Below, piece by piece: positions 27,430 through 31,219 of a stretch of 64,000 nt of DNA; the stretch's first letter is position 1; every line of letters starts with the position of its first letter. The DNA comes from Propionispora vibrioides (GTDB lineage: Bacteria; Bacillota; Negativicutes; Propionisporales; Propionisporaceae), in NCBI RefSeq assembly GCF_900110485.1, contig NZ_FODY01000024.1, positions 1 to 64,000 of the forward strand, read 5' to 3'. The notes below the pieces were generated by a model. It had not been told where the DNA came from. It ran no database searches and worked only from the letters and a program-made list of their open reading frames with translations. The position numbers and the translations under genes are program-made.

Positions 27430-29610
27430 ATGAGAATGAGCGATATATTAGCAGGGCTTAACGAGCAACAGCGACAGGCTGTAACGACTACTGAAGGCTT
27501 TATCCGTGTGATCGCCGGCGCGGGCTCCGGCAAAACGCGGGCGCTGTCCCACCGGTTCGCCTATCTGGTAAACGATATTGGCATCATGCCGGCCAACATT
27601 CTCTGCGTTACCTTTACCAATAAATCGGCGAATGAAATGAAGCAACGTATCCGCCGCCTCACCGGCGACAGCGATACAGGCTATATCAGCACGTTCCACA
27701 GCTTTTGCGTAGCCGTTTTACAAGAGGATATTAATACTGTACAGTATCCGAAGAACTTTCTCGTGCTGGACAACGCAGATATCGACGCCATGCTGAAGAT
27801 CATCTATGAGGAGCGCGGTCTCACACTGCGCCATATGACCTTTTCCAAAGCACGGGACATGATCGAAATACGCAAGATCTTCAAAGATCCCGAGTACTAT
27901 GAGCATATGATAGCGCTTCCTTTGGATAAATTGCAGCAAAGGTACCTGGATGCCGTGGAACCAGATGACATTATTTTCTGGGGTTATCTTTATCAACAAA
28001 AGAAGTGCTTCAGCCTGGACTACAACGACCTGATCAAATATGTGCTCTATATCTTCAGCGTCAACGAGGTAATTCGGTTAAAGTGGCAAAAACGGCTGGA
28101 ATACATCATGATCGATGAGTATCAGGATATCGATGAGCTGCAGTATCGCCTGATGAAGGTATTGTGTGCCTACCATCAAAACCTGTTTATTGTAGGCGAT
28201 CCGGACCAGACCATTTACACCTGGCGGGGAGCCAGCGTATGGTATATATTGAACTTTGATAAAGAGTTTTCTAATGTCCGCACCATCATGATGATGACTA
28301 ATTATCGATCTACACCGCAGATTGTGGCCGTAGCCAACTCTCTGATCGGGAACAATAAACACCGCATAAAAAAGGATTTGCTCCCGGTGCTGCCGGATGA
28401 CACCAAGGTTGTCTACCATCACGCCAAAACAGCGGAGGCGGAGGCCAAATGGATAGTGGCTGAAATCAAGCAACTCGTCGCTAATGGCATAAAGCTCGGC
28501 GACATTGCCATTCTATATCGTGCCCATTATATTTCCCGCATGCTGGAAGAGGTATTGTTGAAGGAAGAGGTACCGTACAAAATTTATAGCGGCGTACAGT
28601 TTTTCAACCGTATGGAGATCAAGGATGCGTTGTCATATTTGCGTCTGATAGCCTATAAGGACGACTTGTCTTTCCTGCGGATAGCCAACGTGCCCAAACG
28701 CAATATCGGTGAACGGCGCATGAAGTTTTTGCAGGACTACGCCATGCAGAATCAATGCTCGCTTTACAGTGCATTGGAACGGACAATCGATAGCGAAATT
28801 TTCAAGAGTACCAAGGCACAGCAGTTCGTAGCCCTGATCGAACGATTTTCGGCAGGCTATCAGGGGTTGCCTGTCTCCGAACTGTTGAATGCGGTCCTTG
28901 ACCAGAGCGGCTATGAAGTGATGCTCCGGACAGAAGGCAGCCAGGAACGGCTGGATAATCTGGCGGAACTGAAACAGTCGGTTTATGAATATGAAATATC
29001 CTGCGGTGAGGAATGCACACTGGAAGACTATCTTGCCCATGTGGCGCTGCTGACAAACACTGATGCTCTTTCCGGTCAGAACTCGGTCAAGCTGATGACT
29101 GTGCACACGGCCAAAGGGCTGGAGTTTCTCCATGTGTTTCTTTGCGGACTGGCGGAAGGCGTGTTCCCGTCGAGGAAGACTGCCACGCTCGAGGGAATGG
29201 AGGAGGAGCGCCGCCTGGCCTTCGTCGCTTTTACCCGGGCCCCAAAAGCACTGTTTATCACCGATGCGGAAGGACGTAATTTTGACGGTTCGCATCGTTA
29301 TCCGTCCCGCTTTATCTTTAATGTGGACAAGGCGCTGCTTGTCTACACAAATGAATTGGACGACAGTCTGGTATATGAAACAAACTGGAATATCACCAGT
29401 AGTGAAAAGATGTTGGCAGCGCAAGCTTCCGGGCCTGTCTTCAAGCCGGGTGACCGGATTGTTCACAGCATACTGGGGAGCGGAGCCGTGATCGATATTG
29501 AATACGACAAAGCCGCTTACGTGATCAAGTTCGATGACCTCGGGACAATGCGAAAAATCAATTTTAAAGCAAAGCTTGAGGCAGAGAGTGCTTTCAACGG
29601 AAACAAGTGA
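27430..29610 (+). CDS. UvrD/PcrA/Rep-type ATP-dependent DNA helicase
   Basis: A 726-residue superfamily 1A 3'-5' helicase. Motif Q/I: LNEQQRQAV and AGAGSGKTRALSHR. Motif II: IDEYQDID. Motif III: VGDPDQTIYTWRGA. Motif IV/V/VI: NYRSTPQI, VKLMTVHTAKGLEF and EERRLAFVAFTRA. The C-terminal tail (about 675-722, GDRIVHSILGSGAVIDIE) is the Tudor-like PcrA tail that contacts RNA polymerase. It is somewhat shorter than PcrA (about 740) and may be a second paralogue. No LexA box was seen. Start ATG 27430, ribosome site GGTGGTG. Confidence 0.93.
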   Translation: MRMSDILAGLNEQQRQAVTTTEGFIRVIAGAGSGKTRALSHRFAYLVNDIGIMPANILCVTFTNKSANEMKQRIRRLTGDSDTGYISTFHSFCVAVLQEDINTVQYPKNFLVLDNADIDAMLKIIYEERGLTLRHMTFSKARDMIEIRKIFKDPEYYEHMIALPLDKLQQRYLDAVEPDDIIFWGYLYQQKKCFSLDYNDLIKYVLYIFSVNEVIRLKWQKRLEYIMIDEYQDIDELQYRLMKVLCAYHQNLFIVGDPDQTIYTWRGASVWYILNFDKEFSNVRTIMMMTNYRSTPQIVAVANSLIGNNKHRIKKDLLPVLPDDTKVVYHHAKTAEAEAKWIVAEIKQLVANGIKLGDIAILYRAHYISRMLEEVLLKEEVPYKIYSGVQFFNRMEIKDALSYLRLIAYKDDLSFLRIANVPKRNIGERRMKFLQDYAMQNQCSLYSALERTIDSEIFKSTKAQQFVALIERFSAGYQGLPVSELLNAVLDQSGYEVMLRTEGSQERLDNLAELKQSVYEYEISCGEECTLEDYLAHVALLTNTDALSGQNSVKLMTVHTAKGLEFLHVFLCGLAEGVFPSRKTATLEGMEEERRLAFVAFTRAPKALFITDAEGRNFDGSHRYPSRFIFNVDKALLVYTNELDDSLVYETNWNITSSEKMLAAQASGPVFKPGDRIVHSILGSGAVIDIEYDKAAYVIKFDDLGTMRKINFKAKLEAESAFNGNK

Positions 29611-29799
29611 ATTATAACGTGGTAGTAGCCTATGGCTTTTTATCAGCCGTTATTTTACCGTATCATTTCCTATCGAGGGCGTAGCATTTCTAGGTCTCAA
29701 GGAATAATTATTTAACCTTGCACTATAATGGTATAGCGAATAAAAATAAGGACAAAAAAATGTGGTCATGATACAATAATAAAATATTAATAAAAAATA

Positions 29800-29960
29800 T
29801 TTTTTCAAGCTTGGAAAGGTAGCTAGGGTTCCGCCTTTTATGAGGGCTGCGACCGAGCGCTACAGCCGCTTTGCGGGGGCACCTATTGGCACAAAAAGCC
29901 CGAGGGGGATAGCTTGGCGTATTTACGTGCGTCAAGATATCTCTCCGGGCTTATTTTTTT
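29800..29960 (+). ncRNA. ykkC-class riboswitch with overlapping terminator
   Basis: The hallmark CTAGGGTTCCG is at 29823-29833. P2-like GGCTG...CAGCC (29845-29867) encloses a CGACCGAG loop as in ykkC RNAs. The 3' aptamer part reads GGCACAAAAAGCCCGAG (29888-29904). P1 is AGCTA (29821-29825) with TAGCT (29910-29914). AAGCCCG (29896-29902) of the aptamer can instead pair with CGGGCTT (29946-29952) to form a terminator with ATTTTTTTT, so a ligand-bound aptamer would allow transcription (ON switch). The gene controlled encodes a Nudix enzyme, which points to the nucleotide-sensing ykkC subtype 2 rather than guanidine. Confidence 0.8.
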
Positions 29961-29980
29961 TAAGAAGGGATTGAGTGTTT

Positions 29981-31219
29981 ATGATTGCCGATCAATATGA
30001 CGTTTTTCTGTTTGACCTTGACGGTGTAATTTATCGTGAGGATGCTGTTTTGGCAGGAAGCAGAAGGTGTATTAGAAAACTTCGGGCACTGGGGAAAAAA
30101 GTTTATTTCTTGACGAATGATCCGCGACCAACTAGACAAGAGTTATGCGATCGCCTAAATTCAATGAAGATAGCAGTGTCACAAGAAGAAATAATTACTT
30201 CTGGTTGGGCGACTGCTCAGTATCTAGCTGAAAATAATATCTCAGATGTTTTTGCAATTGCCACCGAAGGATTTATTAGCGAATTGGAGGCCCTTGGTAT
30301 TAGAACAAAAAATGACGGTAGTTGCCAAGCCGTTGTAGCTGGTTATAATGAAAATACGAATTTTGCGCAAATTCAGCAGGCAATAAGACATCTAGAGAAA
30401 GGCGCACGGTTTATTGCTACCAATGCTGATCAATCATTTCCAGGGCAAAATGGCCGGTGCATTGCGACAGGGGCAATTGCTGGAATGATCCGTATGGTTA
30501 GTGGAAAACAACCGCTTATTATCGGTAAGCCCTACTCTTATATTTTCTCGATTGCTTTCAGGAGAATTGTCCCTGATTCACGGGTGGTCATGATTGGCGA
30601 TAGCCTGGAAACAGATATCTTAGGAGCACATCAACAAGGAATTGATGCTATCCTTTTATCCAAAGATGAGTTGCGTTTTCCGTCAAAGTACGATTATCGG
30701 ATACCAGATAAGATTATTCCTACTCTTTTGGATTTGTTTAAGCCTGATATTGAAGTGGAGAAGTGGAGAAATCCGGGTTTTTTATGGCCGGATGCTGTAA
30801 AACCCGGAGTAGCGGCAGTAATATTCAATGCACAGCGTCAGGTACTATTGGTTAGACGTAATGACAATGGCTTGTGGAGTCTTCCTTCAGGACATCTGGA
30901 AATTGGTGAAACGGTTGTAGAGGCAATTAAACGGGAAATACAAGAAGAGACAGGGTTGATTGTGGACGTGGAGAAACTAATAGGTGTCTATTCAGATCCC
31001 GTTTCGCAAGTTTTTTCTTATCCGTCTGGTGGTACTACTCACTTCATTACCTTGAGTTTTTTATGTTATATAACAGGTGGATGTATGCAAGCGGACTATG
31101 GTGAGATTGCGGAAGTTGCTTTCTTCGATACAAGTCATTTACCAACCAATATGCTAAAAATGCATCCACAATGGCTAACAGATGCATTGGCTGACCAAAG
31201 TTTTTCTTTTTTTCGATAA
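29981..31219 (+). CDS. HAD-IIA phosphatase fused to a Nudix hydrolase
   Basis: A 412-residue two-enzyme protein. Residues 1-255 are a NagD-type HAD-IIA phosphatase: FLFDLDGVIYRE carries the nucleophile Asp, FLTNDPRPTRQ is motif II, and VMIGDSLETDILGAHQQG is motif IV. Residues about 275-410 are a Nudix domain with the full box GHLEIGETVVEAIKREIQEE... (304-326). Together they could hydrolyse a nucleoside diphosphate compound and then remove phosphate from the product. AGAAGGGA fits ATG 29981 (GTG 29975 is too close). Expression depends on the upstream ykkC-class riboswitch. Confidence 0.9.
   Translation: MIADQYDVFLFDLDGVIYREDAVLAGSRRCIRKLRALGKKVYFLTNDPRPTRQELCDRLNSMKIAVSQEEIITSGWATAQYLAENNISDVFAIATEGFISELEALGIRTKNDGSCQAVVAGYNENTNFAQIQQAIRHLEKGARFIATNADQSFPGQNGRCIATGAIAGMIRMVSGKQPLIIGKPYSYIFSIAFRRIVPDSRVVMIGDSLETDILGAHQQGIDAILLSKDELRFPSKYDYRIPDKIIPTLLDLFKPDIEVEKWRNPGFLWPDAVKPGVAAVIFNAQRQVLLVRRNDNGLWSLPSGHLEIGETVVEAIKREIQEETGLIVDVEKLIGVYSDPVSQVFSYPSGGTTHFITLSFLCYITGGCMQADYGEIAEVAFFDTSHLPTNMLKMHPQWLTDALADQSFSFFR

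Follow-up and report, generated by a model that had tools for sequence, protein, structure and literature searches.

A probable NDP-responsive ykkC subtype 2c riboswitch precedes a HAD-IIA/Nudix fusion gene in Propionispora vibrioides

RESULTS

Organization of the Locus

The 64,000-nucleotide stretch of Propionispora vibrioides DNA analysed here (the window) carries a gene for a HAD-IIA phosphatase fused to a Nudix hydrolase, preceded by a structured leader. The features of the leader and gene are as follows.

29749–29777, + strand: promoter-like site AGGACA-N17-TACAAT with TG before the -10 (consensus scan, 9/12 matches)
29802–29923, + strand: ykkC aptamer of subtype 2c type (RF00442 and R1 scores; covariation in 32 sequences)
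29806–29811, + strand: P0 5' arm, CAAGCU, partner of 29911–29916
29819–29863, + strand: P1, GUAGC 29819–29823 with GCUAC 29859–29863, enclosing the P2 arm and CUAGGGUUCCG
29831–29853: P2-like stem
29888–29900, + strand: P3, GGC 29888–29890, loop ACAAAAA, GCC 29898–29900
29911–29916, + strand: P0 3' arm, AGCUUG, a strand common to P0 and the terminator
29896–29963, + strand: intrinsic terminator, hairpin 29896–29952 followed by a U tract (MFE fold of the leader)
29981–31219, + strand: HAD-IIA/Nudix fusion gene, 412 aa (Pfam, NCBIfam)
30005–30736, + strand: HAD-IIA phosphatase domain, residues about 9–252 (TIGR01460, 139.3 bits, cut-off 100.15)
30803–31156, + strand: Nudix domain, residues 275–392 (PF00293, E 3.1e-21)

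Reading the leader directly places the ykkC hallmark CTAGGGTTCCG at 29823–29833, the positions of the ykkC core CUAGGGUUCCG 5' of the open frame 29981–31219, and the segment GGCACAAAAAGCCCGAG at 29888–29904. A preliminary description, made from the letters alone, had named the hallmark, the P2-like stem, the GGCACAAAAAGCCCGAG core and a terminator competing for GCCCG, and all four are found at the coordinates given; the 5' arm of the terminator reuses the P0 3' strand in addition to GCCCG and includes the 3' strand of P3. The promoter-like site is one of seven in the region against 5.4 expected, a number not above shuffles, and relatives, by reading, have a TATAAT-like box at a similar place. 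For the gene, ATG at 29981 is a likelier start than GTG at 29975, as the GTG is absent in one of the relatives (L006).

The Leader RNA and Its Relatives

At the gathering threshold Rfam gave no family match within the window. The best permissive match was Guanidine-I (RF00442), whose whole model aligned to 29812–29907 with 32.3 bits, under its cut-off of 63, and with an E value of 3.3e-4 in a 371-nt scan and 9.8e-4 in the whole 4.43-Mb genome; the Guanidine-I covariance search envisaged in the preliminary description was therefore negative at the gathering threshold and positive only in the permissive scan. HgcG, snoR26 and mir-1303, returned by the same kind of scan, scored well under their own cut-offs in the wrong context and were treated as chance matches. 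The folding energy of the isolated aptamer was no better than that of shuffles (z 0.90).

Three relatives of the fusion gene (L005, L006 and L007) have a like RNA just 5', with RF00442 scores of 36.5–39.4 bits, and these leaders together with that of the window were used to build a model, R1, that was run in eight genome scans; scans with R1, RF00442 and proteins amounted to 1,734 genome searches, some genomes being repeated. R1 gives the window RNA, itself one of the training sequences, 144.2 bits over 29802–29923. In the phylum sample it found five RNAs besides that of the window at 84.6–105.2 bits, the next match scoring 62.8, and the final high set comprises 32 RNAs at 78–160 bits, four of which are the training sequences and which, the R1 scans having used strict cut-offs, are not a census. 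R1 sets this 78–160-bit group apart from other ykkC RNAs, although RNAs of intermediate score, at 62 bits (L165) and 71 bits (L166), blur its boundary. No viral contig had the group signature. One member (L160:1501-1634) has a variant P3, GGAAUAAAAUGCC.

Across the 32 sequences, 96.5% of base-pair cells hold standard pairs (87.1% when shuffled) and 123 cells are altered in both partners, where column shuffles average 42.4, in an alignment that was fitted to the structure and is to that extent somewhat favourable to the signal; sliding the pair partners abolishes it. Every P1 cell is paired, P0 has 97.4% of its cells paired with four of its six pairs changed on both sides, and P3 has 99% paired with one pair changed on both sides. 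The leader RNA is real, and the comparative support for it is much stronger than its RF00442 score.

Genes Linked to the Group RNAs

Comparison of the downstream frames of the 32 group members with the two domains of the window protein showed that 31 of the RNAs lie before a fusion, a fusion remnant or a Nudix gene belonging to a single family. An intact HAD-Nudix fusion follows ten of them (window, L005, L006, L007, L117, L118, L119, L120, L121 and L123), and a stand-alone Nudix gene, about 49–56% identical to the Nudix domain of the window, follows 19 (L085–L089, L149, L150, L152–L159 and L161–L164; L153 and L154 by tblastn only). The two remnants are L122, with broken frames and a mismatch in the P0 5' arm, and L151, where homology within the available stretch extends to residues 1–64 only; they could reflect decay of the unit or assembly errors. 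The remaining RNA, L160, lies about 270 nt before a Ham1-family (XTP pyrophosphatase) gene, followed by an EamA-like transporter frame, and the Ham1-family gene is possibly a further gene type under a group RNA. The genes after lower-scoring RNAs include, by reading, purB-, purE- and permease-like ones. A second, weaker ykkC RNA of the Ktedonosporobacter genome (L130:1501-1630, − strand, 49.6 bits), whose CACCUCAUGGAAC is a 2c-like variant, lies upstream of an MFS transporter gene.

Across the 251 genomes sampled from the window's class, each of the nine full-length fusions is preceded by the RNA, and none of the ten strong RNAs lacks a fusion or fusion remnant downstream; the pairing of RNA and gene is real and conserved. 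Two sampled congeners have neither, and the RNA and gene thus seem to have been gained or lost together. The neighbourhood of the fusion also seems variable, as the UvrD/PcrA-type helicase just 5' (window 27430–29610) has matches of only 38–39% identity in the two congeners searched. In a tree of the Nudix domain the stand-alone proteins are separate from the fusions (100/97); the fusions of the window's class form their own group (94/93), and the Chloroflexota protein of L007 falls next to this group but outside it. Among 301 genomes of its phylum, that of L007 alone has a high-scoring member, which suggests that RNA and fusion gene were transferred together.

The Fusion Protein

The fusion of a Nudix enzyme to a HAD phosphatase, named in the preliminary description, is confirmed by Pfam matches to Hydrolase_6 (3.7e-25), Hydrolase_like (2e-11) and NUDIX (PF00293, 3.1e-21). 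The HAD residues Asp-12, Asp-14, Thr-45, Lys-183 and Asp-207 are present, as is the Nudix box (G304...E310...R318 E319...E322 E323), and in an alignment of ten fusions and five stand-alone Nudix proteins the catalytic motifs of both domains are intact, with the Nudix box of L005 deviating at TG and keeping its glutamates. Fusion relatives are 51–87% identical over their full length; a protein scan of genome contigs gave only three full-length relatives, the other matches examined covering mainly the Nudix part.

No PDB sequence match spans both domains. The predicted structure resembles HAD-IIA phosphatases, and the closest solved relatives of the Nudix domain, distant ones only, include NUDT18 and entries of the ADP-ribose pyrophosphatase type. 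In the AlphaFold model (pTM 0.66) the domains are confident; the linker and the relative placement of the domains are not, and we therefore make no claim of channelling.

Subtype of the RNA

Guanidine-I riboswitches are recognized by an A at the guanidine-contacting position and by having no P0 helix (PMC6031431). The window RNA has a C at this position, where the 32-member group has C or G, and it has a P0 helix, although this criterion and the extended conservation that goes with it are structurally shown for subtype 2b and assumed for 2c. It combines the ykkC scaffold (P1, P2, P3 and core) and the non-A position with a NUDIX/HAD-like gene downstream, and has a P3-side signature, CACCUAUUGGC...GCCCGAGGGG, that was not seen in the 2a/2b-like RNAs compared. 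Subtype 2c is described with NUDIX and HAD-like hydrolase genes and with (d)ADP and (d)CDP as ligands (PMC7266159), and NUDIX hydrolases are also named for it elsewhere (PMC5912903). Gene association and the signature shared with the Nudix-linked RNAs of the group thus support assignment of the window RNA to subtype 2c, and by homology to the published class its ligand would be an NDP. The preliminary description had given this label, along with the sensing of nucleoside diphosphates by Nudix-linked subtype 2 RNAs; the published association agrees on both counts, and that this ykkC RNA is other than guanidine-I is upheld by the sub-threshold score, the C for A and P0.

That a guanidine-I riboswitch (subtype 1) stands by chance before a hydrolase gene would fit RF00442 being the sole sensible Rfam match, but the score lies far below the cut-off of 63 bits, against 85.3 for the guanidine-I copy present in this genome, and the contact base, P0 and gene association are all wrong for it, so that this reading is almost certainly mistaken. 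A sensor of PRPP or ppGpp (subtype 2b or 2a) would share with the window RNA a common scaffold, the P0 helix and a pyrimidine at the subtype-2 position, and C29880 and G29902 seem to correspond to the paired C and G of PRPP aptamers. However, the window RNA belongs to a group set apart by score and by a distinctive P3-side signature, its downstream gene is the HAD-Nudix fusion and not a purine biosynthesis gene as for PRPP, and the context published for 2c is one of Nudix/HAD genes (PMC7266159). Furthermore, other ykkC RNAs of the same genome occupy purine-type permease and glutamate-synthase-like contexts, and we regard a PRPP or ppGpp sensor as very unlikely. In all, the window genome (G000) has three further ykkC RNAs (L001, L002 and L003, on contigs C27, C6 and C25), one being the 85.3-bit copy above the RF00442 cut-off, one preceding a Xan_ur_permease gene, and the third preceding a gene that by reading, and without confirmation from Pfam, is glutamate-synthase-subunit-like; four ykkC ligand classes are probably found side by side in this genome.

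A Predicted ON Switch and a Proposed Role for the Enzyme

Each of the 16 leaders folded is predicted to form a long hairpin from the 3'-strand bases of P3 and P0; a simple consensus scan for terminators did not list the 29896–29952 hairpin of the window. As aptamer and terminator are mutually exclusive, ligand binding should favour readthrough. This ON direction is predicted from the anatomy of the leader and from related classes: expression under 2c RNAs is predicted to rise with ligand (PMC7266159), and ON behaviour is reported for 2a and 2b (PMC6031431; PMC5912903). Our favoured reading, which we hold to be probable, takes the leader as a ykkC subtype 2c (NDP) transcriptional ON switch whose HAD-Nudix product drains the NDP pool. 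With no ligand, the P3 and P0 3' strands would be captured by the strong terminator and transcription would stop before the gene; abundant (d)NDPs would stabilize the aptamer, P0 and P3 would keep their 3' strands, and the blocked terminator would allow the enzyme to be made. The Nudix domain would then cleave the phosphoanhydride of an NDP, or of a related nucleotide, to give the NMP, from which the HAD-IIA domain would strip the remaining phosphate to give the nucleoside, these being the likely substrates and order of the two reactions. Draining of the NDP pool would close a negative feedback loop.

Some Nudix enzymes can release NDP from NTP or NDP-X, and this is what could be said for the earlier proposal that the fusion both makes and degrades an NDP ligand. 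Its domains are two hydrolases whose catalytic motifs are intact, and there is no kinase or transferase domain, so this part of the preliminary description is unsupported and we judge it highly improbable. A different departure from the favoured reading retains a relative of 2c and supposes another physiological nucleotide as ligand (an oxidized or modified NDP, or an NDP-X), with the enzyme as a housecleaning hydrolase. According to a review, it is somewhat unclear what exactly 2c RNAs bind (PMC7266159), the solved Nudix relatives are of the distant kinds named above, and a Ham1-family gene follows one of the group RNAs, all of which would suit such a ligand; the group signature, however, is common to ordinary Nudix-linked members, and we consider this reading unlikely. 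At a pocket-adjacent position, the fusion-linked RNAs have C in 11 cases and G in one, and the others C in five and G in 15. As a marker of fusion-linked RNAs this is a tendency only (11/12 C versus 15/20 G). The NDP reading can be extended: the fusion would dispose of NDPs in two steps, down to nucleosides, within one protein and under direct NDP control, and the RNAs linked to it would have a ligand preference shifted to match the enzyme. This extension appears to us quite doubtful.

DISCUSSION

Since Nudix and HAD-like genes under 2c RNAs are already described (PMC7266159), the pairing of this RNA with the fusion is expected, and the unit matches the published class and does not represent a new type of system, the fused gene being a useful detail. 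The riboswitch texts consulted (PMC7266159, PMC5912903 and PMC6031431) do not mention a HAD-Nudix fusion, and no literature on such a fusion under a riboswitch was evident in a search mostly at the level of titles and the openings of abstracts. In the class sampled the fusion is always under a 2c-type switch, joining in one protein both of the hydrolase types reported for the subtype. With the precise ligand described as not entirely clear in the review cited, this suggests that the role of the regulon may be to take NDPs fully to nucleosides.

Among known systems the closest is subtype 2c (Sherlock et al. 2019, as summarised in PMC7266159), which resembles the window unit in its ykkC scaffold, subtype-2 features, gene types and competing terminator; the difference is that the downstream gene here is a single HAD-Nudix fusion. 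Guanidine-I (RF00442) has the same P1/P2/P3 layout and CUAGGGUUCCG core, from which the window RNA departs by its sub-threshold score, the C for A, the added P0 and a different gene. The PRPP (2b) and ppGpp (2a) riboswitches are alike in the P0 helix, the pyrimidine at the subtype-2 position and terminator control, but the 2a/2b-like RNAs compared here are of the CACCG...CGG type, unlike the CACCUAUUGGC...GCCCGAGGGG of the window, and their genes differ too. In the protein, the HAD domain shares fold and catalytic motifs with the HAD-IIA phosphatases of the NagD/Pho2/chronophin group and the Nudix domain with the MutT-type Nudix hydrolases; what sets the fusion apart from both families is that the two domains are present in one chain.
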